Assembly: GCA_023260435.1 (NCBI GenBank)
Contig: JALQVG010000055.1
Span: 1 to 34,098 of the forward strand
DNA from: Flavobacteriaceae bacterium
GTDB lineage: Bacteria > Bacteroidota > Bacteroidia > Flavobacteriales > Flavobacteriaceae
DNA length: 34,098 nt
Direction: 5' to 3'
Part shown: positions 9,277-25,919 of the stretch, piece after piece
How the letters are laid out: each line of letters starts with the position of its first letter
Position numbering within the stretch: position 1 is the first letter of the stretch
Translations under genes and position numbers: made by a program
The notes under the pieces: generated by a model
Databases searched by the model: none
Seen by the model: only the letters and a program-made list of their open reading frames with translations
Told to the model about the DNA's origin: nothing

Positions 9277-9280
9277 TGGA

Positions 9281-12200
9281 TTATAATTTAACATTTAAAC
9301 CAAATACAAGTGTAGATAGTGGGTTATAGGTATAGATACCTGTTCCTCCAGTGATAGATGTAGAAGGATTGAATCCTTTTCTTTTTGAAGCCAACCAAAG
9401 GTTGTCACCAGTGATGTATAAATCAGCTGTGTCCAAACCTAGTTTGTTGGCTAGGGATTTTGGTACGTTATACCCAAGACGTACGTTGTTTAGGGCGATA
9501 AAGTCTGATCTAGTCAAGAATCTTGAAGATGAAGCATTTTGTTGAATTTGCAAAGCAGCATCTTGTCTTGGAACATCAGTTACATCACCTTCTTGTCTCC
9601 AACGGTTTCTGATGTCTACGTGGAAGTTGTTGGTACCAGCGTATCCATTACCCATTAGAGTAGCGTAGGCACTGTCGTAGGCCCATCCACCCAATTGATA
9701 GTTGAATAGGGTAGACAAATTGAAATTTTTGTATGATGCATTCAATCTAAATGCTCCGCGAACGTCAGGAATGATGCTCTTGTTTAAGAACTTGTTGGTA
9801 GCGTTAGCATACACATCAGTTTTTTCAGACTGAATATTAGCGTCAGGATTGTCATTAACGTACGGAGTCAAAGAGTTGATGCGGACATCACCTGTGTTGA
9901 ATTTGCCATCGTTGTTTTTGTCTTCAAAATAGGCAGTCCATTCAGCAGCACCAGTGGTTGGGTTCACTCCGGTGTATTCTTTGGTGTAATAGTCGAAGAG
10001 TGATCTACCTGACTCGTTTCCGTAAAGTCCACTTACACTGAACTTTTGTTGTTCACCAGTAACTGGATCAATCGGAAGTGCCATCAATTTGTTGCTGAAT
10101 TTCTCTCCGTTGATGCCAGCACTTAGTTTGAAATCACCTTTGTTCAAAATCTTGAAGTCAAAGTCAAATTCAATCCCTTGGTTAATCAACTCTCCGTCGT
10201 TTACTTTAAGTGAAGCATAACCTACAGATGGTCCAACTTGTCTGTCGTAGAACATGTCGTTGGTAACTTTTTTGTAAGCTTCCAATGATCCAGAGAAGAA
10301 TCCTCCAATTTCAAAATCTACACCCGCATTAAACTGGTTTGATTTTTCCCAAGTCAAATCTTTATTTCCTTTAGTGGTGAAGGCCAAAGAAATATTGTCA
10401 GAAAGGTTGTTGATGGAATACAAGTTGTACCCTGGATATAATCCAATACCTCCTGAGTTACCAATGGTTCCATAACTAGCTTTAACTTTCAAGAAGTCAA
10501 AGAATTTAGAATCTTTCATGAAATCTTCTTCAGTCAAAGCCCAAGCTCCACCTACGGAGTAGAAATCACCCCAACGGTTGTTGATAAATCTAGAAGAAGC
10601 ATCTTTGTTGTAAGATAACGTCAAGAAATATTTGTTTTGGTAGTCGGTATTTACGTTGGCAATGTAGCTTTCAGTGCGCTCATTGTCTGTGTATCCATAT
10701 CCTGGAGCATTAACCACCCCATTGGCGATATCAATACCGTCAGGTAAAACCAATTTACTTCTTTCAGCAGATAAGTAGTTGTACTCGTAAGCAGTCGCTA
10801 CGTGCGATAAAAACGCAGATACATTGAACTCATCGATTTGCTTTTTAAAACGCAAACCTGTTCTGATGGAGTAGTTTTTAGTTTCAGCACGATCTCTAGT
10901 AACCAAACCACCTTGACCTTTAGCAGGGCTATAGAAAGGCTCGTACAAGCTGATACCATCATTCATATAATACTGGTAAGCAAAATTGTTCTCCAAAGTT
11001 ACCCCATCAGTAATGTTCATGGTGGTGTTATTGTTGAAGTTAACAGAGTTTGCTTTCGCGCGGCTCACGTTGATTTTAGCATCAGCCACACCGTTGGTCG
11101 CAAATCCAAAACCTCTTCCTTGTTCTAAACCGTAATCATAAAGATATCCTCCATAAATAGGGTCGTCAATTTTATTGCCATCAGCATCTCTTCTGAATAA
11201 TGGGTAAACAGTTGGGATGTTATCTACCCACCAGAACTGAGATGATGAAGATGAACCGGTACCATTGTTGTTTGATTCACTTTGAGTATAGTTCAATGTG
11301 GTGTTTACATCGATAAAATCTTTGATTTTGTGGGTAGCAGCAACACGTCCGTTCAAACGGTTAAAGTTTGTGTTGGTAGCGTATCCGATATCATCGATAA
11401 ATCCAAATGAAGTATACACAGAAGAGTTTTCACCTACGTTAGAAATAGTCATGATGACTTCATTTCTGTTGGCATCCTGGAAAGTGTAGTCACCCCAGCT
11501 TTCTGGTGTATATTTTCTGGTCACACCTGGGCGTACAGTTCCAGTTGCTGGATCAATCAACGCCGCTACATCCACGTTGCCGTTGGCTAGTGAAGGAACG
11601 TTCCACATGTTGTAAATGGTAGGTAAGTCAGATACGGCTCCACCACCTGGGATTTCAAACAAGTTAGCATTGGCATAAGCAACAGCAGATTCTGTGGTTG
11701 CGTTTGCAGCTCTTAAGCCTCTTTGGTATACACCGTCCCAAGCAATTCCGATATACTCTTCTGGAGATCGTATTGTTTCATAACGGGCAATACCTTGGTA
11801 GTTAGTACCTGTTTTTACTTGAACGTTGATGCTGTTGCCAGCGTCTTTACCTCTTTTGGTGGTGATTACAATTACCCCGTTAGCACCACGAGCACCGTAC
11901 AAAGAAGTAGCAGAAGCATCCTTAAGAACAGTAATCGATTTGATGTCATTTGGGTTAATGTCATTCAAACTTCCACCAAATGGAGCATCATCTACAATGT
12001 ACAAAGGAGCTTGGCTTCCACTTACGGAACCAAAACCTCTAATACGCACGGTAGATGTAGATCCTGGCTGACCAGAAGTGTTGAATACAGCCACACCAGC
12101 AACCTCACCGGCTAAAGCCTGAGATACGTTGGTAAATGATTTTTGTGATACGTTTTCACCAGCAACTACTTTCGCAGATCCGGCAAACGACTTTTTAGAC

Positions 12201-12538
12201 ACATCACCAAAACCTGTTACGATCACTTCTTCAAGAGCCTGAGCGTCTTGAGCTAGTGAAACATTAAGTTGGCTAGAGTTTCCTACAGAGACTTCTTTGG
12301 TTACATACCCGATAAAACTAAACACCAAGACATCGCCCTGTGCTGCACTAATCGAGAAGTTACCATCGAAATCTGAAGTGGTTCCTTTGTTGGTTCCTTT
12401 TACCAATACAGTAGCACCTGGTAAGGGAGCGCCATCTTGGTCAGATACCAATCCGGAAACCGTTTTGGTTTGTGCAAAGGCTATTTGCACAGCAAATACC
12501 AGCAAAAACGCCAGCAATCCTTTAACTTTTGTTTTCAT
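9281..12538 (-). CDS. SusC/RagA-family TonB-dependent transporter (pair 1)
   Basis: This is an outer-membrane TonB-dependent channel of 1085 residues. In order: signal peptide 1-22 (cleaved after AFA), a carboxypeptidase-regulatory-like domain at about 24-100 (VSGLVSDQDGAPLPGATVLV, FDGNFSI), a TonB-box-like segment EEVIVTGFG near 104-112, a plug domain at about 115-230 with VRIRGFGSVSG, APLYIVDDAPF and LYGARGANGVIVITTKRGK, then the 22-strand barrel. It ends in FGLNVKL, without the terminal Phe common in outer-membrane barrels. The partner SusD gene starts four bases after its stop. The first 100 residues are almost the same as in the other two SusC proteins here. Substrate unknown. Confidence 0.95.
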   Translation of the reverse strand: MKTKVKGLLAFLLVFAVQIAFAQTKTVSGLVSDQDGAPLPGATVLVKGTNKGTTSDFDGNFSISAAQGDVLVFSFIGYVTKEVSVGNSSQLNVSLAQDAQALEEVIVTGFGDVSKKSFAGSAKVVAGENVSQKSFTNVSQALAGEVAGVAVFNTSGQPGSTSTVRIRGFGSVSGSQAPLYIVDDAPFGGSLNDINPNDIKSITVLKDASATSLYGARGANGVIVITTKRGKDAGNSINVQVKTGTNYQGIARYETIRSPEEYIGIAWDGVYQRGLRAANATTESAVAYANANLFEIPGGGAVSDLPTIYNMWNVPSLANGNVDVAALIDPATGTVRPGVTRKYTPESWGDYTFQDANRNEVIMTISNVGENSSVYTSFGFIDDIGYATNTNFNRLNGRVAATHKIKDFIDVNTTLNYTQSESNNNGTGSSSSSQFWWVDNIPTVYPLFRRDADGNKIDDPIYGGYLYDYGLEQGRGFGFATNGVADAKINVSRAKANSVNFNNNTTMNITDGVTLENNFAYQYYMNDGISLYEPFYSPAKGQGGLVTRDRAETKNYSIRTGLRFKKQIDEFNVSAFLSHVATAYEYNYLSAERSKLVLPDGIDIANGVVNAPGYGYTDNERTESYIANVNTDYQNKYFLTLSYNKDASSRFINNRWGDFYSVGGAWALTEEDFMKDSKFFDFLKVKASYGTIGNSGGIGLYPGYNLYSINNLSDNISLAFTTKGNKDLTWEKSNQFNAGVDFEIGGFFSGSLEAYKKVTNDMFYDRQVGPSVGYASLKVNDGELINQGIEFDFDFKILNKGDFKLSAGINGEKFSNKLMALPIDPVTGEQQKFSVSGLYGNESGRSLFDYYTKEYTGVNPTTGAAEWTAYFEDKNNDGKFNTGDVRINSLTPYVNDNPDANIQSEKTDVYANATNKFLNKSIIPDVRGAFRLNASYKNFNLSTLFNYQLGGWAYDSAYATLMGNGYAGTNNFHVDIRNRWRQEGDVTDVPRQDAALQIQQNASSSRFLTRSDFIALNNVRLGYNVPKSLANKLGLDTADLYITGDNLWLASKRKGFNPSTSITGGTGIYTYNPLSTLVFGLNVKL

Positions 12539-12568
12539 TTGAGTGGGTTTAGTTAAACAAAATCATCG

Positions 12569-12576
12569 CAAACTTA
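12569..12576 (-). promoter_or_regulatory. Promoter -7 box of SusC pair 1
   Basis: The minus strand reads TAAGTTTG, an exact match to TAnnTTTG, 30 bases before the ATG. No clear -33 TTTG is seen at the expected distance. The 110-base gap 12539-12648 contains only this promoter, the A-rich leader with AACTAAA, and AT-rich sequence without a clear terminator for the preceding gene. Confidence 0.6.
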
Positions 12577-12648
12577 ACACATATTATGATAAATAATACG
12601 TTTTAAAGTGTTTTTTAGTTAATTATTCTGTGTTAAAATGTGTAACTG

Positions 12649-13323
12649 TTACTGTATATTTAATTCCGATATCCAGTCAAATATCTCTGTTTCATTTTTT
12701 AATTTTCGTTTGTTTTTTGGATTTCTGTGTTCTGGCAAAAGAAGATCGCTCTCCCACAAGTTTCTCAAGTTTCCCTCCAATAAATAGTGTTTGTTATTTC
12801 TAGAAATAATATAGCTAGATGCATCCACCCACTTTGGGTTTTTTGGGTCTGAAAATCCAGAACTCGGCATGGAGATACTCTCTTTTCGTGGTTCTTCTAT
12901 TTTTTTTCTAGAATGAAGCAGTAAGCCGTAAGGTTTTTCCGGTATGATTTCTGATACCAAAACTGTTTGAGGGGTAGAATTTAATGGGGTAATATCTATT
13001 GTCGAGTATTTTTTACCCATGTATTCAACAATTGCCCCTTTATCTGGCGTGTATTTTAGTAGTTCTTGGCTGTTCCCTTTTATTTCAAAGTAACTCGCAC
13101 CGATGTGAAGTCTCGCCATAACCTTTACTCTGTTACCATCTCTCATCTCAATAATGGTCTCGCTGTACGATTTGTCTAGATAAGGATTCCCATCAATTTC
13201 TTTGTTTTCTGCAATTTGTTTAAGTAACTCTACATTACCCATATTACTTAAGCTTCTAGCATCGATGGAGAAATTTTGTCCCCAAGCCATTATGGGTACC
13301 AGTATTAATAGTAATTTTTTCAT
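12649..13323 (-). CDS. Secreted or periplasmic protein of unknown function
   Basis: I do not recognise a named function. The 224-residue protein has a signal peptide (MKKLLLILVPIMAWGQ, with likely cleavage near G-Q) and no lipobox. The middle part (GNPYLDKSYSETIIEMRDGN, then VKVMARLHIGASYFEIKGN and GAIVEYMGKKYSTID) resembles a beta-rich repeat in Bacteroidota secreted proteins of the form GxPYLxxxFxxGxVxxxDG. The C-terminus is basic (HRNPKNKRKLKNE). It lies just after a strong terminator that closes the SusC-SusD pair 2 operon, on the same strand, with only about 10 bases between the T-tract and its ATG. It may be expressed by read-through or from a promoter overlapping the hairpin. Its base composition is lower in G+C than its neighbours. 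Confidence 0.75.
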   Translation of the reverse strand: MKKLLLILVPIMAWGQNFSIDARSLSNMGNVELLKQIAENKEIDGNPYLDKSYSETIIEMRDGNRVKVMARLHIGASYFEIKGNSQELLKYTPDKGAIVEYMGKKYSTIDITPLNSTPQTVLVSEIIPEKPYGLLLHSRKKIEEPRKESISMPSSGFSDPKNPKWVDASSYIISRNNKHYLLEGNLRNLWESDLLLPEHRNPKNKRKLKNETEIFDWISELNIQ

Positions 13324-13333
13324 AGTTTTTATT

Positions 13334-13370
13334 TTAAAAAAAAAGCGCCTATCAAAGATAGACGCTTTTT
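13334..13370 (-). terminator. Rho-independent terminator of SusC-SusD pair 2
   Basis: On the minus strand a stem AAAGCGTCTATC / GATAGGCGCTTT (one T-G wobble) with a TTT loop is followed by a T-run. It begins about 20 bases after the SusD stop at 13389. Confidence 0.85.
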
Positions 13371-13388
13371 GTTGTCAATGTAGTGCGT

Positions 13389-14810
13389 TTATTTAACGTC
13401 CCACCATAGTTTAGTATCTTGTGTGTCTGCGCCTTGAGCAGCAACAGCAGCATTGTAGTTTGCTTCGTTGAGTGCAGCTACGTTAGCAGAGTATCCATAA
13501 CGTACAGGGATCCCTGTACCAGATTCTGCGTCTGGAGCTGGAGAAAGTACTGGAAAATCTAGTCTTCTCCATTCTGCCCATGCCTCAGCACCTTGAAGGT
13601 AAAGAGCAACCCATTTTTGGGTAGCAATTTGTTCCATAGCTTTTGCAGAGTTGAAAACTACTTCAGCACCAGCTTTATAAGCAGTTGCATCTGCAGAAGA
13701 AACACCCCATTGCTCCATTGAAGCATCAATTCCTTTGTAGTACCATGTAGCTACATCATCAGTAATCCATCCTCTTTCAGCAGCTTCGGCCATAGAAAAA
13801 GCAACTTGTGCATAAGAGAAAATCATACCTCCAGCTGTAGTACCGTCATAGATTACTTCATCAGCAATAAAGGAAATATTGGCTTGAAGCACATTTGGGT
13901 TGGCTACACCATAAGGCACACCTACATAGTTCCCACCTGCAGCAGGTAATTCAGCATAGGAAGCAACACGTGGATCATTGTGGGCCAAAAGATGGTCTAC
14001 AAATACATCACTTAATGCATAGTCTTCACGAGTTTCAAATCGATCTTGCCAAGGATTGTCGTTGGTGTCCTCGGTAAGGTATGGATAATGCATGTTGTCT
14101 GCAGAGCTGGCCAATGCGCCAGACATAGCTTCTTTAAATTTAGTTTGAGCTGTAGCGGGAGCAACATCAGAAATTCTCAAAGCCATAACCATTTTTAAGG
14201 TGTTGGCAAATTTCTTCCATTTGTTCATATCACCACTGAACAAAATATCTCCTTTTAGTGCTCCTGCAGTTTCGATAGAAGCCAAAGCTTCATCGATTAA
14301 ATCAAAGCTAGCCATATAGACGGCTTCCTGAGTGTCAAAAGCAGGAGTGATGTTTTCTACACCCTTAAGGGCTTCAGAAAATGGAATCATTCCCCAAGAA
14401 TCTGTTAAATGCTTAAAGTAGTAAGCCTTTAAGATTTTAGCGACAGCTAGTTGATTATTAGTTGATCCAGAACCTGTATATGCTTCAGGATTTGCTATGT
14501 TTAGGTCGATGATCTCTTGAAGGTCTTTCAAGGCTCCAGCGTACCATCCATCGTAGGATCTTTGAGTTGTCGCATAGCGAGACTCTTCGGTATAGGTTAC
14601 TTGAGCGATATATTGAACCCACATATTTCCCTCTACCTCACTTACTTTAGCGGGCATAGATCTAAGTGCGTTGGTCAATAGTGCTTGAGTTGAAGCAGCA
14701 GAAGGTTGATTTGGGTTTACATTTTCGTTTCCGAAATCAACGGTTTCGCATGATCCCAACAAGCCTAATGAAAGCGCTACAATTCCAAAAAATTTAATAT
14801 TCTTTTTCAT
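13389..14810 (-). CDS. SusD-like lipoprotein, SusD-like_2 type (pair 2)
   Basis: This is an outer-membrane lipoprotein partner of the SusC upstream. The start is taken at MKKNIKFFGIVALSLGLLGSC, giving 473 residues with lipobox LGSC (C21); an in-frame ATG three codons earlier (14819) is possible. The NVNPNQPSAASTQALLTNALRS start after the signal, the AVAKILKAYYFKHLTDSWGMIPFSEALKG helix and the C-terminal QKWVALYLQGAEAWAEWRRL segment are typical of the SusD-like_2 group rather than of classical SusD. The W-G-x-x-P-F/Y-S-E-A motif is shared with the SusD of pair 3. It begins 12 bases after the SusC stop. Ligand unknown. Confidence 0.92.
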   Translation of the reverse strand: MKKNIKFFGIVALSLGLLGSCETVDFGNENVNPNQPSAASTQALLTNALRSMPAKVSEVEGNMWVQYIAQVTYTEESRYATTQRSYDGWYAGALKDLQEIIDLNIANPEAYTGSGSTNNQLAVAKILKAYYFKHLTDSWGMIPFSEALKGVENITPAFDTQEAVYMASFDLIDEALASIETAGALKGDILFSGDMNKWKKFANTLKMVMALRISDVAPATAQTKFKEAMSGALASSADNMHYPYLTEDTNDNPWQDRFETREDYALSDVFVDHLLAHNDPRVASYAELPAAGGNYVGVPYGVANPNVLQANISFIADEVIYDGTTAGGMIFSYAQVAFSMAEAAERGWITDDVATWYYKGIDASMEQWGVSSADATAYKAGAEVVFNSAKAMEQIATQKWVALYLQGAEAWAEWRRLDFPVLSPAPDAESGTGIPVRYGYSANVAALNEANYNAAVAAQGADTQDTKLWWDVK

Positions 14811-14822
14811 GGTTATCATGGC

Positions 14823-17800
14823 TTAAAAGTTAATTTTTACATTCAGACCTATGCTGCGTGCTGGAGGTAATTGACCACCTTCTACAGCTCTGTATGGACT
14901 GGTCAAACTTCCTTGTCCCTCAATTTCGCTTGGGTCAAGTCCATCGACTTTTGAATACAATAGGAACAAGTTGTTTCCAATGACAGAAACGTCTACAGTT
15001 TTGAAAGGAGTGTTGGCAATAAGTTGTTGTGGTAGAGTATACCCAACGCGTAATTGACGAAGTTTGATGTATGAAGCATCGTATAACCAAGCATCGTGAA
15101 TACCAAATAGTCCGCCGAAGTATTCTTGAGCTTCTACATAAGTATCTACACTTGCACCGTTAGCATCCACACCTACTACATGGACACCACCACCATCGTC
15201 TACTGGATCTCTTAATGGTTTCCCAGCATCGTTTAGACCAGCTGTTGACGCGTGAAGACCAGAGTATGAAGAGAACATATTGGTAGTTGAATAGAATAGT
15301 CCGCCTTTTTGGAAATCAAGACCTAAGTTTAAGTAGGCATTTTTGTAGCGTAAGGTCGAAGAAAAACCTCCAGTGAAATCAGGTAAAATATTACCTAGTT
15401 TTTGATTAGTCTCAACAACATATGATCCATCACTGTTCAGGATGTAATTTCCATTGGCATCAGTTTTTCTCTTTCTTCCAACAAAAGTACCCCATTCTTC
15501 ACCTGGGATTTCTTGTAATTGTAGTGAGTACCAGCTTAAGTTACCACCCAATACATTTTTCTCTATACCAGGGTAGATATTGTCTACTCTTTTTTCAAGG
15601 GTACCAAAGTTAACAGACATATCCCAAGTCCAGTTATCAGACTGTACAGGAGTTCCTGAAATAGCTAATTCAATACCATTAGAAGAAGTTTGTCCTGAGT
15701 TGATAGACAATCCTGTGTAGCCAGTTTCCGCAGTAACAGGAATGGCCACTGGAAGCTGAGAGTCTTTTCTGTCAAAATAGGTAAAATCTAAACCTACTCT
15801 ATTTTTCAAAAACTTCATTTCCAATCCAATTTCAGTCTCATTACGAGTTCCACCTAATAGGTTAGGGTTTGACTGAGTATTAGGTACAGAGAAAGAGGCA
15901 TTTGAGCCATAAGGACTTCCTACGTTGTACACAGAAGTTGTTTGATATGCTCCTGGGAAAATAGGTGCTTGTGCCACACCCGCTCTAACTTTTGCGAATG
16001 AGATTACATCTACATTCAATAAGCTGTTAAAGATGAATGAACCGGAGAATCCGTAGGTGTCCAATCGGTTATCATTAACGTTAGCTGTTGATCCCCAGTC
16101 TAAACGGTATGAACCGTCTAAATAGAACATAGAGTTGTATCCAATAGATACAGAAGCAAAGTTTGATTGAACTTTACTGTTGACAAATGTATTGCTGTAA
16201 GAGGGTCTATCTACTGAAGTAGCTATGCTGTAAAAGTTAGGAACAGAAAGTCCGCCAACAGTACTAGCCGATGTGCTTGTCTCTTTGTTCTGTTGCATTT
16301 GATAACCAACTTTTACGTCTAAATCCAAAGCATCATTCAAGAAACGATCGGTATATGACAAGAATCCAAAGATTTCGTTTTGCTCATATCTGCTTCTGCT
16401 TTCGCTATATCTAGGAACATCAAGTCCACCAAAAGCGATGCGAGAATTGCTGAAGTAGCCATTATATCTTCTTCTAACCTCAAGGTTTGCTTTGAATTTG
16501 TCATTGAATTTATAGTTGGCACCAAAATTTCCGAACAACACATCCTTTTCCTGGTTAGTATTGTTGTTGTCAGGACCGAAGTGTGGCGCATCCCAGTAAA
16601 GTGGTCTTGAATTTCTTGGAGATCTTATGTTCCAAGAATAGTAATTTCCTTCAAAGAAGTACAAGTCTTTTAGGCGATCGATATCCAATTGACGTTGCCA
16701 CCATTGGTTAAAGTTAGACCCTATTCCACCGTAACCCTGTGCAGGTTCGTTTTTGGTGTTTCTAACTTGGTAGTTTAAAGATGTGTACACATTTAATTTT
16801 TCACTAAAATCAAATGATGCATTCACGTTCATGTCAATTTGCTTTCTTGAAGCTCCTGGCATGATTAATTCTTGATCTAGGTTTCTCAAAGTAGCAGAGA
16901 CTTTGTAGTCTTCTCCTCCTTTAGCCCAGCTTACCGAGGTATTGTTGTTGATCGCTTTATTGTAAAAATCTCGGATGTTGTTTGGATTGGCTGACCATGG
17001 TCTTAATTCTCCAAAAGTAGGACTTCCAGGAATCCATGAATCCCAATGACGCACAAGGGTTCCGTCCAAACGTGGTCCCCATGATTCATCAGCAGCATAG
17101 TAAGGAATCTTTTGTCCGTCAAATGCAGCCCAATCAGCTGGATCTGTGGCTGGATTAAAGGTGAATGTATCCCATTCTTGATAGTATCCACCTCCGTATT
17201 CGTTTTGGTAATCTGGCAATAGAGACACTGAAGTCATTGTAGTTGTATGATCTACAGTTAAAGCAGCTTGTCCATTTTTAGCTGATTTAGAGGTAATAAC
17301 AACCACACCATTTCTTGCATCAACACCAAAAAGAGCCGTTGCGGCAGCACCCTTTAACACAGAAATATTTCCAATGTTGTCGGTGTTAATATCCGATTGA
17401 GAGTAAACTTTAATACCGTCAACTACATAAAGAACCCCAGTTTCACCACGCAAACGCAACAAACCTGCATCAAAAGTTGAACTTGGAGCTCCAACCATTT
17501 GTACCCCGGATACTTTTCCGGAAAGTGCTGTGTTCAAATCCACGTCTTTGGCTTGAACCAATACATCTCCTTGTACAGTTTGTTGAGAGTAACCAATAGC
17601 TTTCTTTGATCGGGTAATTCCCAATGCAGATACTACTACTTCTTCAAGCGCTTGAGCATCTTGGCTTAATGTAGCATTCACTTGATCAGAAGCTCCGATT
17701 CTAATTTCTAAGTTATTGTAGCCCACAAAGCTGAAGACCAACACGTCTCCTTGTTTGGCCGTAATTGAATAATTACCGTCAAAATCTGTGGTTGCTCCAG

Positions 17801-17951
17801 TGTTACTTCCTTTAACCAATACAGTCGCCCCTGGAAGAGGTAGACCATCTTGGTCAGAAACAACCCCTGAAACGGTTTTGTTTTGTGCAAAAGCAAACTG
17901 CACAACCAACGCCAACAAGAGCGTCAGAATTCCATTTAGTTTTGTTTTCAT
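14823..17951 (-). CDS. SusC/RagA-family TonB-dependent transporter (pair 2)
   Basis: This outer-membrane transporter has 1042 residues from the ATG at 17951. That start is chosen because MKTKLNGILTLLLALVVQFA is a signal peptide matching the other two SusC starts, with the same leader before it; an ATG 16 codons upstream lies before the promoter box. Domains: signal peptide 1-22, carboxypeptidase-regulatory-like domain (VSGVVSDQDGLPLPGATVLV), TonB-box-like LEEVVVSALG, plug (LRLRGETGVLYVVDGIKVYS; ATALFGVDARNGVVVITSKS) and barrel ending in GLNVKINF with a terminal Phe. The plug loop between the conserved blocks is shorter than in pairs 1 and 3 (LRLRGETGVLYVVDG without the usual insertion). It is divergent from the redoxin gene. 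Substrate unknown. Confidence 0.94.
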   Translation of the reverse strand: MKTKLNGILTLLLALVVQFAFAQNKTVSGVVSDQDGLPLPGATVLVKGSNTGATTDFDGNYSITAKQGDVLVFSFVGYNNLEIRIGASDQVNATLSQDAQALEEVVVSALGITRSKKAIGYSQQTVQGDVLVQAKDVDLNTALSGKVSGVQMVGAPSSTFDAGLLRLRGETGVLYVVDGIKVYSQSDINTDNIGNISVLKGAAATALFGVDARNGVVVITSKSAKNGQAALTVDHTTTMTSVSLLPDYQNEYGGGYYQEWDTFTFNPATDPADWAAFDGQKIPYYAADESWGPRLDGTLVRHWDSWIPGSPTFGELRPWSANPNNIRDFYNKAINNNTSVSWAKGGEDYKVSATLRNLDQELIMPGASRKQIDMNVNASFDFSEKLNVYTSLNYQVRNTKNEPAQGYGGIGSNFNQWWQRQLDIDRLKDLYFFEGNYYSWNIRSPRNSRPLYWDAPHFGPDNNNTNQEKDVLFGNFGANYKFNDKFKANLEVRRRYNGYFSNSRIAFGGLDVPRYSESRSRYEQNEIFGFLSYTDRFLNDALDLDVKVGYQMQQNKETSTSASTVGGLSVPNFYSIATSVDRPSYSNTFVNSKVQSNFASVSIGYNSMFYLDGSYRLDWGSTANVNDNRLDTYGFSGSFIFNSLLNVDVISFAKVRAGVAQAPIFPGAYQTTSVYNVGSPYGSNASFSVPNTQSNPNLLGGTRNETEIGLEMKFLKNRVGLDFTYFDRKDSQLPVAIPVTAETGYTGLSINSGQTSSNGIELAISGTPVQSDNWTWDMSVNFGTLEKRVDNIYPGIEKNVLGGNLSWYSLQLQEIPGEEWGTFVGRKRKTDANGNYILNSDGSYVVETNQKLGNILPDFTGGFSSTLRYKNAYLNLGLDFQKGGLFYSTTNMFSSYSGLHASTAGLNDAGKPLRDPVDDGGGVHVVGVDANGASVDTYVEAQEYFGGLFGIHDAWLYDASYIKLRQLRVGYTLPQQLIANTPFKTVDVSVIGNNLFLLYSKVDGLDPSEIEGQGSLTSPYRAVEGGQLPPARSIGLNVKINF

Positions 17952-17978
17952 TTGTTTGTATTTAGTTAAATTGAGGTG

Positions 17979-18011
17979 CGAATTTAACTTTATTTTCACG
18001 TTTTAAGGCAA
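17979..18011 (-). promoter_or_regulatory. Promoter of SusC pair 2
   Basis: The minus strand reads TTG (18009-18011), 22 bases, then TAAATTCG (17979-17986), which is 27 bases before the ATG. The -7 box differs from TAnnTTTG in one base and matches the TTCG form before SusC 3. The 83-base gap between the divergent SusC and redoxin genes holds this promoter; no clear plus-strand promoter was found there. Confidence 0.5.
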
Positions 18012-18034
18012 CATAAGTAACTTAATGTTCAATC

Positions 18035-18604
18035 ATGAACTTTAAACTATTGATTATTAGCGTTATAAGTTTTTGGTTTCACCTTGGTTTATCTGTGATT
18101 TCACCTCAGATTTTAGAGGTCAATAAATCATACGACTATAAAAAACCTGCTGAAAAATTAATTACCTATGTCTTTATGGCAGTTGAATGTCCTATATCTC
18201 AAAAGTATATTTACAGACTTAATGAGCTCAACAAACGCTATCCTGAGATGAATATTATTGGCGTCTTTCAAGAAAACACTTCCAAAGAGGAATTGTCAGA
18301 TTTTAAAGAGCGGTTTAGTGTTGATTTTCCTTTAGTATTTGACAAAGGTCATCGATGGGCACTCGAATACAAGGTGGAGATTACTCCTGAAGTTTTTTTA
18401 ATCGATCGCTTTAACAGGGTACTATATTCTGGCGCTATAGATAACTGGTTTATCAGTTTGGGTAGAAATAGAAAAGCCCCTAGTGAACACTATCTTTTGG
18501 ATGCTTTTTTAGCGACGAAACAAGGAGAGGAAGTCAAGATTAAGAAAACCAAAGCCGTTGGTTGCTTCCTTGAACTAAATACTTCACACCATCATGGTCA
18601 ATAG
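18035..18604 (+). CDS. Secreted redoxin/thioredoxin-fold protein
   Basis: The protein has 189 residues, with an N-terminal hydrophobic segment (about 3-22, FKLLIISVISFWFHLGLSVI) acting as signal peptide or anchor, then a thioredoxin-like fold of the redoxin/AhpC-TSA class. The active-site region is VECPISQKY, with a single cysteine C52 in place of CxxC, followed by IIGVFQEN, FPLVFDKG and the cis-Pro strand EITPEVFLID. A second cysteine, C177, lies in AVGCFLE near the C-terminus, a pattern I recall in redoxins encoded next to copper-monooxygenase-like cytochromes. The tail ends in HHHGQ. Its last 11 bases overlap the start of the cytochrome-monooxygenase gene. Likely extracytoplasmic and redox-linked to that partner; reaction unknown. 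Confidence 0.85.
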   Translation: MNFKLLIISVISFWFHLGLSVISPQILEVNKSYDYKKPAEKLITYVFMAVECPISQKYIYRLNELNKRYPEMNIIGVFQENTSKEELSDFKERFSVDFPLVFDKGHRWALEYKVEITPEVFLIDRFNRVLYSGAIDNWFISLGRNRKAPSEHYLLDAFLATKQGEEVKIKKTKAVGCFLELNTSHHHGQ

Positions 18605-19817
18605 ATATTTACCCGCTTTTTTCTTCTGTTTTATTCTGAGCTTCACTCATGCTCAAGATGTGAACTATGAACAACACATTGCGCCCATTATTCAAAAAAA
18701 CTGTGTTTCCTGCCACCGCAGCGGTGGATACGGTCCTTTCCCGCTCGCGACGTACTCCGAGGTTCAAAAACGGGGAAAGTTTATTGCCCACGTGACCAAA
18801 ACAAAATACATGCCTCCCTGGAAGGCAGATCCCTCTTTTAGTCATTTTAAGAATGAGCGAATTCTTACAGATAAGGAGATTGATCAAATTCAACTTTGGG
18901 TGGCGCAAGGAATGAAAAGGGGAGAGGTGTCCTCCCAGAGCCCTATTGATAGGCATTCAACAGAGTATTCAAAACCTGATCTAGTACTTCGCATGAATAG
19001 TGCTTTTCAGTTGTCAGCTAAGGGTATTGAGGATTACCGTTTTTTTCACGTTCCTACGAATTTGGACCGAGATGTATATGTTTCTGCGATCGGTTTTATG
19101 GCAGGTAACAAACGATATGTCCACCACAGTAGAATTATGGTAGATACTTCTGGGCAAACTTTAGGAATAGATGGGCTTTCCGAGTTTGATCCCAGATCAT
19201 TAGCTTTTCAGACTAAACCGCTCATGGATGAGTTTTTATACGGGTGGGTTCCGGGAAATATCCCTGTTGCTTATCCGTCAGGAACGGCCAAGCTAATTCC
19301 CAAAGGTTCGGATCTGATATTCAATATACATTACGCACCTTCCTCAGAAGTAGCAACAGATCTCTCTGAGGTACATCTATATTTTTCTGATGTTCCTGTG
19401 AAACATATGATTAAGAGTCTGTCTATTCGCGAAGAGGATATAGCCAATCAACCTTTTGTGATTCGCTCCGAAACTTCTCCTACTTTTTATGTAAGTAAAG
19501 TTTTAGAAGAAGATATGAATGTTGTTTCACTTTTGCCTCACATGCATTTTTTGGGTAAGAGCATGACTGCATTGGCTATTTTACCGGACCAAACGCAGGT
19601 GCCACTAATCAGTATTCCTGAATGGGATTACAATTGGCAAAGCACTTATATGTTTGAATCCCCTGTTTTCTTACCTAAGGGTACATTGTTGTTGATGACG
19701 GCTACATTCGACAACACCTCATCCAATTCATTGAACCCAACATCACCTCCCAAAGATGTTACTTACGGTTGGAATTCCACGGATGAAATGATGAACCTAG
19801 TCATGTATTACTATTGA
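18594..19817 (+). CDS. Cytochrome c - PHM-like copper monooxygenase fusion
   Basis: This 407-residue exported protein has a signal peptide at 1-20 (ending THAQ). A small c-type cytochrome domain at about 22-110 has the heme-attachment motif C37-V-S-C40-H41 and a likely axial Met in KYMPPW (M73). The remainder resembles the two-domain catalytic core of peptidylglycine alpha-hydroxylating and dopamine beta monooxygenases (copper type II, ascorbate-dependent). The ligand pattern is present in order: H177-H178 (VHHSR) and H246 (NIHYAP) for the first copper, then H316-x-H318 (LPHMHFLG) and M399 in TDEMMNLVMYYY for the second. The last motif closely parallels DEMCNLYIMYY of animal PHM. The heme could supply electrons in place of ascorbate (inference). 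It overlaps the redoxin gene by 11 bases. Substrate unknown. Confidence 0.88.
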   Translation: MVNRYLPAFFFCFILSFTHAQDVNYEQHIAPIIQKNCVSCHRSGGYGPFPLATYSEVQKRGKFIAHVTKTKYMPPWKADPSFSHFKNERILTDKEIDQIQLWVAQGMKRGEVSSQSPIDRHSTEYSKPDLVLRMNSAFQLSAKGIEDYRFFHVPTNLDRDVYVSAIGFMAGNKRYVHHSRIMVDTSGQTLGIDGLSEFDPRSLAFQTKPLMDEFLYGWVPGNIPVAYPSGTAKLIPKGSDLIFNIHYAPSSEVATDLSEVHLYFSDVPVKHMIKSLSIREEDIANQPFVIRSETSPTFYVSKVLEEDMNVVSLLPHMHFLGKSMTALAILPDQTQVPLISIPEWDYNWQSTYMFESPVFLPKGTLLLMTATFDNTSSNSLNPTSPPKDVTYGWNSTDEMMNLVMYYY

Positions 19818-19834
19818 TGTACATGATATAAAAC

Positions 19835-19865
19835 AAAAAGACCACCCTATGGGTGGCCTTTTTTT
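19835..19865. terminator. Bidirectional terminator between convergent genes
   Basis: A-run, GACCACCC, TAT loop, GGGTGGCC, T-run: the stem has one A-C mismatch, with A/T tracts on both sides, so it can work in both directions. It sits between the cytochrome-monooxygenase stop (19817) and the lipoprotein stop (19883). Its ACCACCC/GGGTGG core is the same as in the terminator at 7721-7740. Confidence 0.88.
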
Positions 19866-19882
19866 AGTCAATTTGTCTTTGA

Positions 19883-20839
19883 TTACTCGTTGCAAAGATC
19901 AAGTTTGATTTCACCATTAGATTTCACATCGGAAGCAACTACGTTGGCCAATGTGTTTCCATTTGGATTTTTGATTTGATAGATAACTTCACTATCCCAA
20001 GCACCCTTGGTGTATTTAAAGTACATACTTGTTGATCCTGCAGGTACAGTAAATGTTTGGGTTACAGGTCCAGCACCGTCAGCCATGGTAAAAGTTCCAA
20101 TCACAACGTCGTCAACAACGACATCAATTGAAGCTCCATTCCATCCATCACCGTAGTCATCAGCACCGATTATTGTCCAAACACCAGTTCTCTGCTCAAT
20201 CGATTTAGCACAAACTACCGTCCAATCTTTTTGACAGTTGGCTTCAGGGAATTCTGTACATACCGATGGTGACCACGAATCAAATACGCGACCATCTTCC
20301 GTGGTGAAAATCCATTTAAGGGTAAATGTATCACCAGGGATGAATTTGTTGGTAGTTGCGTTTCTTGATGGTTTTAATGGGTTGGCAAATACAGAAACTG
20401 TACCGCTACCAAAACCATAATCATAACTAGCACTGGAGTAGGCGGCATAAACATCCTCTTGAGTAATAGAGAACGTTTTCACTGTGTTTTCAGCAGGCAC
20501 ATCTCCACCGGTAAAGGTTTTTACCAATTTTCCTGCATCACCGCCGTGTTTTACAGTTTTGTTGTTACCATCAATATCTTTGTAGCTTTCATTGAATAGC
20601 ACATACAAATCAATTTTGGTAACTGTATTCTTCTGATCTATAGATTTCCATTTTAGATCAAAAGATACATTTACAGAAGCGTCTCCTCTTTTAAAGTCGG
20701 TAACTTCTCCATTAACTACGGCATAACCGTGAACTGCTGATTCCCATTCTGGCAGGATCACCAAATCTTCGTCCTTACACGATTGAAGGGTAATTCCAAC
20801 CGCCATTAAGGATAATAGATATTTAGTATATTTTTTCAT
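19883..20839 (-). CDS. Surface lipoprotein with C-terminal GDGWNG-type domain (SusCD pair 3 operon)
   Basis: The protein has 318 residues with lipobox LQSC (C21). The cysteine is followed by KDED, an acidic pattern like the lipoprotein export signal that sends Bacteroidota lipoproteins to the cell surface. Residues 30-210 are a beta-rich region I do not recognise (VNVSFDLKWKSIDQ; TFTLKWIFTTEDGRVFDSW). From about 227 comes a domain with DDYGDGWNGASIDVVVDD, a WDSEVIYQIKNPNG core and a final DLCNE. This motif recurs in secreted Bacteroidota proteins and may bind ligand or metal, but its function is not established. It is third in the operon, 21 bases after SusD, the position where other systems place SusE/SusF-like accessory binding lipoproteins. 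That role is inferred from position only. Confidence 0.82.
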   Translation of the reverse strand: MKKYTKYLLSLMAVGITLQSCKDEDLVILPEWESAVHGYAVVNGEVTDFKRGDASVNVSFDLKWKSIDQKNTVTKIDLYVLFNESYKDIDGNNKTVKHGGDAGKLVKTFTGGDVPAENTVKTFSITQEDVYAAYSSASYDYGFGSGTVSVFANPLKPSRNATTNKFIPGDTFTLKWIFTTEDGRVFDSWSPSVCTEFPEANCQKDWTVVCAKSIEQRTGVWTIIGADDYGDGWNGASIDVVVDDVVIGTFTMADGAGPVTQTFTVPAGSTSMYFKYTKGAWDSEVIYQIKNPNGNTLANVVASDVKSNGEIKLDLCNE

Positions 20840-20860
20840 GTCTATTAGCTTTTAGTATAA

Positions 20861-22600
20861 TTAAAATTGGAATTTAAGTGTATCCCAGAAAATGGCAGCA
20901 CTTGGTGAGTCATACACTTTTGAAGGTGTGTTGCTGTTCAAATTCACTTCGTCTTGTGCATAAGGGAAGCTCAATGCATACTGTCTTGGGATTTGAAGTG
21001 GCGCTTGAATATCTGCAGGTAATCCAGTTCTTCTAAAAGAATTGTATCCCTCAAATCCATTTCCAAAGTTAGCAAACCATGCTTGTTTTAAGACGTATCC
21101 TAATCTCTGTGTGTCAGTTCCTGTAGTTGGATATTCAGCAGTTACATCAGCAAGGAAGGCAGTTTTGTTTTTAAACACCAATGTTGATGGCCATTGTGTG
21201 TATGTGGCATTCCATGTGTCAATGTTACTCGATGCAGCAGGGTCGGCAGCAGTACCAACTGAAATAACTTTGTTCATTTGATCGCTCAAGGCGCTTTCTA
21301 ATAAAGCTGATTCTGTCATACCGGTATTAACTCCTAAGGCAATCTGTGCTTCTAGCATGTAAAATTTCACCATCCATGAGGTAATGATTGGGAAGATTCC
21401 ATCACCCTTACCAAATTTGTTTCCTCCTGTAGTGCTTGCAGTGGTATCAAATAAACCAGCTGCTGGATAAGCACCGACTGTTGTTCTCAATGGGTTATCA
21501 TTTGGAATACCAGATGGGTCAGAGCGATCTCTACCAAAGTATCCTGCTAAGTAAGCTTTTTCCTTGTCAGAAAGTTGAGCAGGAGTTTTGCCAAATACTC
21601 CATCGGTCACTAAAGCGCTTAACACGAAGTAACCATAAGTGCAATCAGCTCTTTGAGAACATGGCATAGTTTGTTTATCAGTAGGCTCTTCTGGATCAAG
21701 AATTGTAGTAGTTTGTCTCTTGAAGTAGAAGGGAGCTCTTGGATCGCGGTTCTTGAGCATTTCGTACATAATTTGATGCCCAAAATAGGAGTAACCCGCT
21801 TCACCACCTGCATAACCTGATTGGTACATTGGGTGACGGTTATCAGGGTTGGCTAGATTACCGAAACGCAATTGAAAATCATCCGCGGCTGAAGTGATTA
21901 ATCCACCAGCTGTGATCAATTCTTGAATGGCAGCTGTATTGTTTTGCACATTTCTTGTGTTGATCAAGAGCTTCAACTTAAGTGATTTGGCCATTTTGAT
22001 CCACTTGGTATTACTACCTCCATAGATAATATCCCCTTTTACAGAAGCCGCTTGAGTTTTACCCAAGTTAACAATCGCTTCATCGATTAATCTAAAGGCA
22101 TCGGCATAGATATCAGCACCTTTGTCATAAACAGGTTGTGTATTTTGACCGTTTGGATCATTACCCTTGAATGCTTCACTGTAGGGAACGTCACCCCACA
22201 AGTCAACCATAGTGGTAAAATAGTAAGCTTTCATCAACTGAGCTATACCTAAGTATCTTGGGTTGAGTTCAGGGTCAGCTGCATTAATCATTTCTTCAAG
22301 ATCCTTAAGTGGTCCTGAATACAGATAGTTCCAAGTACCATTCCAGCTAGAGTTAGTGAAATTGAAATCATCACTGCTGGTATTGATGGCCTGGAATCCC
22401 ATAGTGGTGTTGTTTAACCCTCCAGCAAATGTATTCAACCCTTCGAATTGAGCATTGGTCAATAAAAGGTTAAGTGAGGCTTTACTTGCACTATTTGGAT
22501 CGGTATTGATGTCAAGGTCGTTCAGCTCGCAAGACACCATTCCTACTGCTACAAGTGAGCTCAGCAGGAACTTTCCTAATTTTTGTGTATATATTTTCAT
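20861..22600 (-). CDS. SusD-like lipoprotein, SusD-like_2 type (pair 3)
   Basis: The protein has 579 residues, starting MKIYTQKLGKFLLSSLVAVG with lipobox MVSC (C24). After the cysteine, LNDLDINTDPNSASKASLNL and LLTNAQ match the SusD-like_2 N-terminus, followed by the IAQLMKAYYFTTMVDLWGDVPYSEAFKG helix pair and the KWIKMAKSLKLKLLINTRNV helix. It is about 100 residues longer than the pair 2 SusD; the extra length falls mainly in the middle (about 290-400, including a CSQRADCTYGYFV segment with two Cys) and near the C-terminus. Near the end, FGNGFEGYNSFRRTGLPADI is the conserved SusD C-terminal segment. It lies 25 bases after the SusC stop. Ligand unknown. Confidence 0.92.
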   Translation of the reverse strand: MKIYTQKLGKFLLSSLVAVGMVSCELNDLDINTDPNSASKASLNLLLTNAQFEGLNTFAGGLNNTTMGFQAINTSSDDFNFTNSSWNGTWNYLYSGPLKDLEEMINAADPELNPRYLGIAQLMKAYYFTTMVDLWGDVPYSEAFKGNDPNGQNTQPVYDKGADIYADAFRLIDEAIVNLGKTQAASVKGDIIYGGSNTKWIKMAKSLKLKLLINTRNVQNNTAAIQELITAGGLITSAADDFQLRFGNLANPDNRHPMYQSGYAGGEAGYSYFGHQIMYEMLKNRDPRAPFYFKRQTTTILDPEEPTDKQTMPCSQRADCTYGYFVLSALVTDGVFGKTPAQLSDKEKAYLAGYFGRDRSDPSGIPNDNPLRTTVGAYPAAGLFDTTASTTGGNKFGKGDGIFPIITSWMVKFYMLEAQIALGVNTGMTESALLESALSDQMNKVISVGTAADPAASSNIDTWNATYTQWPSTLVFKNKTAFLADVTAEYPTTGTDTQRLGYVLKQAWFANFGNGFEGYNSFRRTGLPADIQAPLQIPRQYALSFPYAQDEVNLNSNTPSKVYDSPSAAIFWDTLKFQF

Positions 22601-22625
22601 TGTTCTTATTTTTTGGATCTAAAAA

Positions 22626-25600
22626 TTAGAAAGTAAGGCTTAAGTTAAAGCTATAACTTTTCGTAGTTGGTGTAGCTCCGTATTCAAAACCTTGTACGTT
22701 TGAAGCAGCACTTTCTGCAAGTACCTCTGGGTCTAAGTTAAGGCCTTCCAACATGTTTGGTGCATTCCACCATAGGTTACGTCCACTAAATGATAGTGTT
22801 CCAGTTCCAAAAGGTGTTTTCTTTAACAGGCTTTTTGGTAGATTGTAGCTCATACCTACTTCACGTAATCTGATAGTTGTTCCATCGTAGATGTTTACCT
22901 CATCCTGACCGTAAGCTCCCCATCCGTTTGAGAAGTGCGAGTCGAATGCTGTCACAGCTGTAGTGTTCTGGATTTTATTTCCATTGGCGTCTAATGTTGC
23001 TTCAAAGGTTTGGTTGCTTCCATAAACACCTGGAACTACTCTCAATTGCTCACGCTCCACTGAATTTGCTAACTGACCTCTTAGCATCAAAGATGCTGCA
23101 GAGAACGAGTATAGATCTCCACCTTGTTTCCAATCGATCAATGCGCGGAACGTAAAGTTTTTGTAGGTGAAGCTATTGGTAACACCAAGCGTAAAGTCTG
23201 GGTTTGGATCTCCGATGATGGTCGATGTTGCAGCTGCAAAAGGCATACCTGTTGCTTTATCAATCAATAAATTACCTTCATCGTCTTTCGCGTTCTCAGT
23301 ACCAAATATTTGTCCATAAGCAAAACCATTTCTGTGGATTGTTCCAAGTGAAGATCCTGGACCTCCGACAAAGATTTCTCCGTTTGGTCCTGCATCCACG
23401 ATTAATGATTTGATTTTAGTGAAGGCAAAATAAGTATTCCATTTAAAGTTGTCATTGGCGATTGGATACACATCCAATCCTAATTCCCATCCTTTGTTGG
23501 TCAATTCACCGATGTTCACTACTTGGCTGGTAAAACCGCTTGATCTTGCAACAGATGCTGTAGCGATTTGTTCAGTAGAAGAACGGCTGAAGTAAGTAAC
23601 GTCAAAGCTTAGTCGATCATTGAACATAGTAGCTGCAATACCAGTTTCAAATTCTGTAGTGAATTCTGGTTTTAATGAAGCATTTCCTAAAACATTTCCA
23701 AGCGAAGCTCTGTTTTGTGCGCCATAGATTGGAGAGGTAAAAGGAGTAGAGATGTTGAAGTTGGTCATCGTTCTGTATGGTGAAGCATCATTACCTACTT
23801 TGGTATTAGCTACACGTACTTTTACACTGCCAAACATTTCAGGTAACTCAACTGCTTCTGACAATAAGAAAGACACACTTGCTCCTGGGTAGAAGTAACT
23901 GTTGTTGTCTAAAGGAAGTGTTGAAGAGTGGTCTTGACGTCCTACCAGTCCTAAGTAGAGCATGTCTTTGTATCCCAAAGATACGTCAGCAAACACACCC
24001 CAAAGTCTTCTCATGTTTAGGTAATCATAATCTACAATTTGAGTGGATGTAGCATCAGTGATATTTAATCCTCTCGAGATGATGACGTTACCAGTAACAC
24101 TTCTTTGGGTCAATTTACGCTCATTGGCATTGATACCTACTACTGCTTTAACAGAAAGATCATCATTAATTGACTTGTCGATGTTCAATAATCCTGTAAA
24201 GTCGCGTTCAGTATTTACTAGGTCTACTGTATTTACAGAACCTGCAGGGGTGTTAATACCACCAGCCACAATGTTGCTTCTTCTCGCTTCATTGTAGGTG
24301 TTGATACCTGCTTTAACGGTGACATTTATACCCTCCGCTAAGTCATATCCTGCAGAAAGGTTACCATAGACACGGTTAACTTCTGACTTATACAAGTTGT
24401 TTTTGGCAATCCAAATAGGGTTATCCAAAGCTCTGTAGAAAATGTTTGATCCATCGGCTGGGTTTTCCCATGGCAATCCATTCAAGTCAAAGTTTCTAGG
24501 TAAATAGAACAAACGAGAGTAGATGGATCCACCACCACCACCGTAGTAATCGTTAAATGCAGATGCACCAGAACGAGGTGATTTTTGCACGGTATTTACA
24601 TAGTTCAATGTACCGGCTATGATCATGCCATTGTCTAGGGTAGCATTTCCACCTGTAAATATGTTGGTTCTTTTAGCTCCTTGATTTGGAACGATACCGC
24701 TTTGGTTCATGTTAGAGAAACCAGCGTTGATGTTGGCTTTTTCACTACCACCACTCATGCTTACCGCATGGTCAACTGTTTGTCCTTTTTGAAAAAATCC
24801 TCCGATGATGTCGTGGGCTTTGATTTCATAGGGCGCAGACACATTTCTAACTGTTCCATCAGGCATGGTGTATGCTTGAACGAATTCTGGGAATACGTTA
24901 GGGAATCTGTTGTTGATTGGGTTAGAGGCAGTTCCTTCAGGATAAGGTTGGCCGTCAGGGTAGTTGGAGTACACTTTGGTGTAGTTGGTTCCGTACTGAG
25001 CGTTGATGCGGTCTACGTGGTTAGGCATAGGAGCTCCCCAGTTACCGATAAATCCTCCGTTGTACACTTGGTTTGAACCTTGGGTATACACATCTTGGTA
25101 ATCAGGAATACCAGATAATTGGGTTGTAGCTAGAGAAGTGTTGTAGCTAACCTCTAGACCTTTTCTAGATTTACCTTTAGAGGCTTTAGTGGTGATTACG
25201 ATTACCCCGTTGGTGGCTCGTGAACCATACAATGCAGATGCAGCAGCACCTTTAAGTACAGAAATGCTTTCAATTGCATTAGGATCTAAGTCAAATCCAC
25301 GGTTGGAGAACACAGTGTTTTGCGCTGCACCTTGGCTGGCGTTTACACTGTTGTCAAAAGGAATACCGTCCACAATAAACAAAGGCTGAGTGTTTCCAGT
25401 CATAGAAGAAATACCGCGGATGTTGATTTTGGTGGATTGGCCTGGCGCTCCTCCGGCTCCGGTGATGTTTACCCCAGTCATTTTACCTTGCATAGCACGT
25501 AAAAGGTCTGGCTCAGCACGTCCTGCCACATCGTCACCGGATACTTTGGCTACTGAGTATCCAATCGATCTGGATTCTCTTTTGATACCCAAAGAGGTAA

Positions 25601-25919
25601 CCACAACTTCTTCAAGTTGTTGGGCATCTCCAGAGAGGATTACATTGATTTGATCAGAGGCACCCACGCTTACTTCTTTGTTGACATAGCCAACAAAGCT
25701 GAAAACCAATACATCTCCTTGTTTTGCGGAGATGGTAAAGTTTCCGTCGAAGTCAGTGGTGGTTCCATTATTGGTTCCCTTGACCAACACAGTTGCGCCA
25801 GGTAGTGGCAAACCGTCTTGATCTGAAACCAAACCAGAAACCGACTTTGTTTGTGCAAAGGCTATTTGCACCACAAACGCTAGCAATAGCGTCAGCATTC
25901 CATTAATTTTTGTTTTCAT
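22626..25919 (-). CDS. SusC/RagA-family TonB-dependent transporter (pair 3)
   Basis: This outer-membrane transporter of 1097 residues has a signal peptide at 1-22 and a carboxypeptidase-regulatory-like domain at about 24-100 (VSGLVSDQDGLPLPGATVLV, FDGNFTI). A TonB-box-like LEEVVVTSLG precedes a plug with INIRGISSMTGNTQPLFIVD and ASALYGSRATNGVIVITTKA. The barrel ends in SFNLSLTF with a terminal Phe. Of the first 60 residues, 49 are identical to SusC 1 by eye alignment. It heads a three-gene operon (SusC-SusD-lipoprotein) that ends at the bidirectional terminator at 19835-19865. A promoter with both -33 and -7 elements lies 30 bases upstream. Substrate unknown. Confidence 0.95.
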   Translation of the reverse strand: MKTKINGMLTLLLAFVVQIAFAQTKSVSGLVSDQDGLPLPGATVLVKGTNNGTTTDFDGNFTISAKQGDVLVFSFVGYVNKEVSVGASDQINVILSGDAQQLEEVVVTSLGIKRESRSIGYSVAKVSGDDVAGRAEPDLLRAMQGKMTGVNITGAGGAPGQSTKINIRGISSMTGNTQPLFIVDGIPFDNSVNASQGAAQNTVFSNRGFDLDPNAIESISVLKGAAASALYGSRATNGVIVITTKASKGKSRKGLEVSYNTSLATTQLSGIPDYQDVYTQGSNQVYNGGFIGNWGAPMPNHVDRINAQYGTNYTKVYSNYPDGQPYPEGTASNPINNRFPNVFPEFVQAYTMPDGTVRNVSAPYEIKAHDIIGGFFQKGQTVDHAVSMSGGSEKANINAGFSNMNQSGIVPNQGAKRTNIFTGGNATLDNGMIIAGTLNYVNTVQKSPRSGASAFNDYYGGGGGSIYSRLFYLPRNFDLNGLPWENPADGSNIFYRALDNPIWIAKNNLYKSEVNRVYGNLSAGYDLAEGINVTVKAGINTYNEARRSNIVAGGINTPAGSVNTVDLVNTERDFTGLLNIDKSINDDLSVKAVVGINANERKLTQRSVTGNVIISRGLNITDATSTQIVDYDYLNMRRLWGVFADVSLGYKDMLYLGLVGRQDHSSTLPLDNNSYFYPGASVSFLLSEAVELPEMFGSVKVRVANTKVGNDASPYRTMTNFNISTPFTSPIYGAQNRASLGNVLGNASLKPEFTTEFETGIAATMFNDRLSFDVTYFSRSSTEQIATASVARSSGFTSQVVNIGELTNKGWELGLDVYPIANDNFKWNTYFAFTKIKSLIVDAGPNGEIFVGGPGSSLGTIHRNGFAYGQIFGTENAKDDEGNLLIDKATGMPFAAATSTIIGDPNPDFTLGVTNSFTYKNFTFRALIDWKQGGDLYSFSAASLMLRGQLANSVEREQLRVVPGVYGSNQTFEATLDANGNKIQNTTAVTAFDSHFSNGWGAYGQDEVNIYDGTTIRLREVGMSYNLPKSLLKKTPFGTGTLSFSGRNLWWNAPNMLEGLNLDPEVLAESAASNVQGFEYGATPTTKSYSFNLSLTF

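Follow-up and report, generated by a model that had tools for sequence, protein, structure and literature searches.

A cytochrome c and PHM/DBH-fold dicopper monooxygenase-like protein with a redoxin partner beside a SusC-SusD operon in Flavobacteriaceae

The window, a 34,098-nucleotide stretch of Flavobacteriaceae DNA from a genome of 1.75 Mb and 92% completeness, encodes a protein in which a c-type cytochrome domain is joined to a copper domain with the two-domain jelly-roll fold of PHM and DBH and with both of their copper ligand sets. Judged by its sequence, this as yet uncharacterised protein is a bacterial relative of the animal copper enzymes responsible for peptide amidation and noradrenaline synthesis; it is a variant of a known superfamily (copper type II monooxygenases, PF01082/PF03712) and not a new fold. 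On balance we favour its reading as an exported PHM/DBH-type dicopper monooxygenase, which would be fed by its own heme, accompanied by a thiol-disulfide redoxin partner and directed at a substrate handled by a SusC-SusD (SusCD) system.

By the usual view, PHM and DBH are eukaryotic enzymes driven by ascorbate. In a 2020 metalloprotein review PHM and DBM were listed only among eukaryotic copper proteins (PMC7435645), and no paper describing the bacterial cytochrome-PHM/redoxin architecture was found in the open-access literature, which is weak evidence of absence. The partnership kept across several phyla suggests a different way of powering PHM/DBH-type oxygen chemistry. More tentatively, the family may form a widespread prokaryotic PHM/DBH branch that is ascorbate-free, relays electrons through heme, relies on a dedicated redoxin and in Bacteroidota oxidises SusCD-captured substrates at the cell surface. 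If true, such a conserved family of bacterial enzymes, with a built-in heme and a thiol partner, would provide soluble models for electron delivery to CuH and CuM, which is hard to dissect with ascorbate as donor, and an oxidative enzyme class would be added to Bacteroidota uptake loci.

The gene pair is arranged as follows.

18035..18604, + strand: redoxin (AhpC/TSA-like, thioredoxin fold) of 189 residues with a hydrophobic N-terminal signal; AhpC-TSA match 2.3e-8, solved relatives 2cvb, 2ywi and 3u5r
18594..19817, + strand: cytochrome c and PHM/DBH-fold dicopper monooxygenase-like protein (the enzyme) of 407 residues, signal peptide at about residues 1-20; assigned by profile, fold and ligands
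18594..18604, + strand: 11-base overlap of the redoxin and enzyme genes, from the ORF coordinates

The 11-base overlap given in the preliminary description is confirmed by the open reading frames, and all of its residue positions proved correct (C37-V-S-C40-H41, M73, HH177-178, H246, H316-x-H318 and M399, the first Met of DEMM, in the enzyme; C52 and C177 in the redoxin). These features are no product of chance: Pfam models match both proteins, every named heme and copper residue is invariant in the family, and the redoxin cysteines are kept almost throughout. Translation of the two genes is likely coupled through this overlap, which also measures 11 bases in a Flavobacteriaceae UBA3440 relative (L016; enzyme 92% identical to the window protein) and 14 bases in two further relatives (L017 and L018). 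A genome of the same genus as the window genome (G166) carries the pair with an enzyme of 93% identity. No relatives were found in plasmid records, phage records or viral contigs, and a mobile-element origin is therefore unsupported.

Fold and metal sites of the enzyme

The enzyme consists of a c-type cytochrome (residues 25-110) and a copper domain (residues 125-407). The Pfam model Cu2_monoox_C (PF03712) matches it weakly but above cut-off (5.7e-6; 26.3 versus 23 bits), PF01082 gives no match in the window enzyme and a match in 12 of 83 relatives, no NCBIfam model matches, and a PDB search with the single window sequence returned nothing relevant. When a profile of the 83 relatives was compared with the PDB, rat PHM (E 1.6e-8) and human DBH (4.1e-8) were retrieved, and the alignment to rat PHM placed HH177-178 on H107-108, H246 on H172, H316 and H318 on H242 and H244, and M399 on M314.

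The structural model was obtained with AlphaFold2 from the family alignment (pLDDT 91.6, pTM 0.86), the single-sequence model having been set aside at a pLDDT of only 30.6. As the preliminary description had proposed, the model was superposed on known structures, and the PHM/DBH fold emerged at Z 18-24: the best match was human DBH (4zel chain A; Z 24.0, 275 residues, 2.9 A), PHM chains scored Z 18-23 over residues 125-407, and the next-best folds, including PNGase F, reached only about 8 (8.2). Foldseek matched the model to the PHM/DBH-type fold at 5.8e-14. Besides 4zel chain A, the best structural matches were the citrate-bound mutants 5wja and 6ala; closed forms are described among these structures, 4zel chain A being the closed form of DBH (PMC6123673), so the model may represent a closed state.

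Ten metal-site residues, four for heme and six for copper, were located in the enzyme.

18702..18716, + strand: heme c motif C37-V-S-C40-H41; C37, C40 and H41 invariant (83/83)
18810..18812, + strand: M73, predicted distal heme ligand in an MPPWKAD motif; invariant (83/83)
19122..19127, + strand: H177 and H178, CuH ligands (rat PHM H107 and H108); invariant, in PHM register
19329..19331, + strand: H246, CuH ligand (rat PHM H172); invariant, in PHM register
19539..19547, + strand: H316-M-H318, CuM ligands (rat PHM H242 and H244); invariant, in PHM register
19788..19790, + strand: M399, CuM ligand (rat PHM M314); invariant, in PHM register

All ten are invariant in the 83 family members scored, which come from several phyla. 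The full two-copper ligand order proposed earlier (HH, H, HxH, M) thus stands in PHM register, and because all ligands are invariant the reading of the family as a non-catalytic cytochrome, named earlier as the outcome that would overturn the proposal, is disfavoured. The cytochrome part has both the CxxCH motif and the distal ligand of a c-type cytochrome in every member, and its sequence matches to hydrazine synthase and to a one-heme cytochrome are short, about 25 residues. We infer that copper and heme occupy these sites; heme maturation would be possible through the cytochrome c assembly gene which is present in the window genome.

Rat PHM (1phm, 1sdw) shares with the window enzyme the two-domain jelly-roll copper fold, both ligand sets in register and the glutamine at Q272 (Q349 here), at about 20% identity. 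It differs in that the window enzyme adds the c-type cytochrome domain and the redoxin partner, and in that the copper domain of the window enzyme is free of cysteines, whereas rat PHM has five disulfides. DBH carries an extra N-terminal DOMON domain, while the extra N-terminal domain of the window enzyme is the cytochrome. The bacterial family has signatures of its own, a WDxNWQxxY stretch (W344, W348, Q349, Y352) and N374/N378.

The redoxin and its partnership with the enzyme

Two conserved cysteines characterise the redoxin.

18188..18190, + strand: C52, at the place of the first cysteine in the thioredoxin CxxC; conserved in 71 of 72 relatives
18563..18565, + strand: C177, in a C-terminal GC motif; kept in 72 of 72 relatives

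They are the sole cysteines of the window redoxin and had been described as lone ones; the positions hold, but the residues are not stray: a known redoxin subfamily conserves them as a pair. The closest solved redoxins (2cvb, 2ywi, 3u5r) have the same pair, and the profile alignment (2cvb, 3.6e-30) spans both cysteines; their names give no tie to a copper enzyme. The window redoxin thus combines the Cys at the first CxxC position with the C-terminal GC of the 2cvb type, which we take to be the PRX_like1 subfamily of CDD. The CxxC of thioredoxin and ResA is absent from the window redoxin, which reads C52-P-I-S55, and is present (Cys at 52 and 55) in 19 of 71 redoxin relatives; NCBIfam matches to ResA and DsbE are weak. 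The peroxiredoxin motif PxxxT/SxxC is also absent, the window reading YVFMAVEC and family column 45 having no Pro among its common residues, and assignment as a canonical peroxiredoxin was rejected on these key residues. Among the roles first offered for the redoxin, thiol-disulfide chemistry is accordingly favoured over peroxide handling, since the canonical motif is missing.

The survey of redoxin-cytochrome-PHM co-occurrence suggested in the preliminary description showed the association to be real. Among 99 untruncated family ORFs the redoxin is fused to the enzyme in 21 and adjacent in 51 (directly upstream in 49, directly downstream in 2), together 72 of 99, and the fusions occur in four phyla: Bacteroidota (Flavobacteriaceae), Planctomycetota, Armatimonadota and Hydrogenedentota. 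Where the redoxin gene does not adjoin that of the enzyme, 17 of the 18 genomes checked encode a close redoxin at another site; in two Dyadobacter genomes this site is on the same contig, about 11 kb from the enzyme gene. The enzyme is rare in 296 Bacteroidota genomes (21 strong cases), and a close redoxin accompanies it in 13 of these 21 versus 22 of the other 275 genomes (Fisher p 1e-8, kinship ignored). At the threshold applied, no close redoxin turned up in the other 8 enzyme-bearing genomes; the enzyme may therefore be able to do without it or to use a substitute.

The fused redoxin-cytochrome-PHM proteins of Flavobacteriaceae (L005-L012 and L015, with L099-L107) start with lipoprotein-like signals, and the members from Saprospiraceae and Hymenobacter bear C-terminal type IX secretion tails, both of which point to an enzyme acting outside the cytoplasm. 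Most of the fused Flavobacteriaceae forms occupy a stable site by clpB-like and histidine-phosphatase-like genes. One Flavobacteriaceae genome (G078) has both an unfused window-like pair (L003) and a fused form (L015). The enzymes of Acidobacteriota and Latescibacterota carry C-terminal TPR repeats (L063, 7905-9971; L073, 7923-9605).

The SusC-SusD neighbourhood

Downstream of the pair lies a convergent SusCD operon.

19835..19863, no single strand: bidirectional terminator-like hairpin separating the pair from the convergent SusCD operon; 13-pair stem with T run (- strand), 6-pair form (+ strand)
19883..20839, - strand: SusCD-associated lipoprotein, accompanying the pair in ten loci; without a match in Pfam or NCBIfam
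20861..22600, - strand: SusD-like outer-membrane lipoprotein (PF12771, 1.4e-48)
22626..25919, - strand: SusC/RagA TonB-dependent transporter (TIGR04056, 6.9e-181)

Within 18 kb (window 7762-25919) the redoxin-PHM pair lies among three SusC-SusD pairs, and 2 of the 3 PF12771 SusD genes of the window genome lie in this interval. The pair had been described as sitting between two SusC-SusD operons, which is right as to position; only the right-hand operon (19883-25919), however, is conserved with the pair and functionally suggestive, the left one being a local insert. In G166 (L096) window positions 12592 and 18164 are only about 230 bases apart, the left operon (13389-17999) and a 224-residue gene, about 5.3 kb within 12593-18100, being absent there, and the L016 locus likewise lacks the left operon on that side. 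The left block is most simply read, from this comparison of sequences, as a lineage-specific insertion, and it was rejected as a functional partner on these absences.

The right-hand type of trio (SusC, SusD, lipoprotein) remains linked to the pair across the range from Flavobacteriaceae to Runella despite a change of orientation, being convergent with the pair in the window, L016, L017 and L018 and collinear in L019, L020, L027, L028 and L030. The SusD relatives that adjoin the pair in L017-L020, L027, L028 and L030 are 36-78% identical, and the adjoining SusC proteins of L017-L020, L028 and L030 are 49-78% identical versus about 30% (at most 38%) for other full-length SusC. All 10 PHM-linked SusD proteins tested match PF12771, a minority type: in six Bacteroidota genomes it was matched 103 times and PF07980 397 times. 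SusCD linkage is confined to one large Bacteroidota clade; in the tree both SusCD-linked groups fall inside this single 44-row clade, so they may not count as independent links.

In Pedobacter, Chitinophaga and relatives the gene order is ROK regulator, SusC, SusD, redoxin, enzyme, FG-GAP/UnbV_ASPIC and PAP2 (presumably a haloperoxidase-like protein), sometimes with a GH29 fucosidase. The order from SusC to PAP2 was seen in L050, L056, L068, L069, L079, L084 and L093, most with ROK in front and some with GH29 behind, and looks like an oxidative uptake locus, as yet uncharacterised.

Proposed mechanism and alternative readings

By analogy with PHM, CuM (H316, H318, M399) would bind and activate O2 and CuH (H177, H178, H246) would supply the second electron. 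The in-chain heme is predicted to pass electrons to the coppers one at a time in place of ascorbate, a plausible route for which an analogous case is known: the c-type cytochrome domain of Cellvibrio Cbp2D/CjX183 can reduce LPMOs in place of ascorbate (PMC8981238). Taken as an analogy, this is a direct precedent for electron supply from a c-type cytochrome to a copper monooxygenase in bacteria, although LPMOs have a different fold with a single copper and the cytochrome there is on a separate protein. The redoxin, through C52 and C177, would most likely pass reducing equivalents to the enzyme, perhaps to its heme or coppers, or maintain its thiols and metals in a suitable redox state.

The exact role of the redoxin is where a reasonable, if unlikely, rival arises: it may be a maturation factor of the ResA/CcmG/Sco kind, which reduces the apocytochrome CxxCH thiols or helps copper loading and takes no part in catalysis. 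Such a role would suit a target with both a heme motif and copper sites, and it agrees with the weak ResA and DsbE matches and with the CxxC of a minority of redoxin relatives. The window redoxin itself, however, has no CxxC, its second invariant Cys is C-terminal, unlike that of ResA, and the genome has a cytochrome c assembly gene of its own; permanent fusion to the enzyme in 21 members speaks for a lasting partner and against a transient chaperone. We consider it improbable that the dicopper-heme protein is no monooxygenase but a reductase of O2, peroxide or nitrogen oxides, or else serves as an electron sink, and that peroxide is dealt with by the redoxin. A heme that feeds a copper site could equally reduce O2 or H2O2, and the redoxin does match the AhpC/TSA family; yet the ligands are precisely those of PHM/DBH, the CuM methionine included, no other PDB fold scores close, and the redoxin is without the PxxxTxxC motif of peroxiredoxins.

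For the favoured reading, an exported PHM/DBH-type monooxygenase, the nature of the substrate admits further alternatives. PHM is among the two closest folds, but a bacterial peptidylglycine hydroxylase making C-terminal amides is very improbable. Rat PHM R240, which we take to be the substrate-carboxylate arginine, corresponds to L314 here (mostly W, L, M, T, A or Q in relatives), and Y318, which we likewise assume to mark the substrate site, corresponds to V403; both positions are variable in the family. The substrate pocket thus looks diversified, and because these residues differ from those of PHM a peptidylglycine role is unlikely; peptidylglycine amidation was rejected on them. It is also rather unlikely that the SusCD link is accidental and uninformative on the substrate. 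Large Bacteroidota genomes are rich in SusCD genes, and Cyclobacteriaceae and fused Flavobacteriaceae forms have none nearby; against this, the matching trio is kept with the pair across the orientation change, and every PHM-linked SusD tested belongs to the minority PF12771 type.

In the window clade the enzyme would probably act on a molecule that the adjoining SusC-SusD-lipoprotein system binds or imports. Nothing pointed to dopamine-like substrates for the window enzyme. In two window-clade relatives arylsulfotransferase-like (ASST) genes adjoin the pair (L019, 9203-10570; L030, 6154-7419), which may hint that the substrates are phenolic or sulfated.
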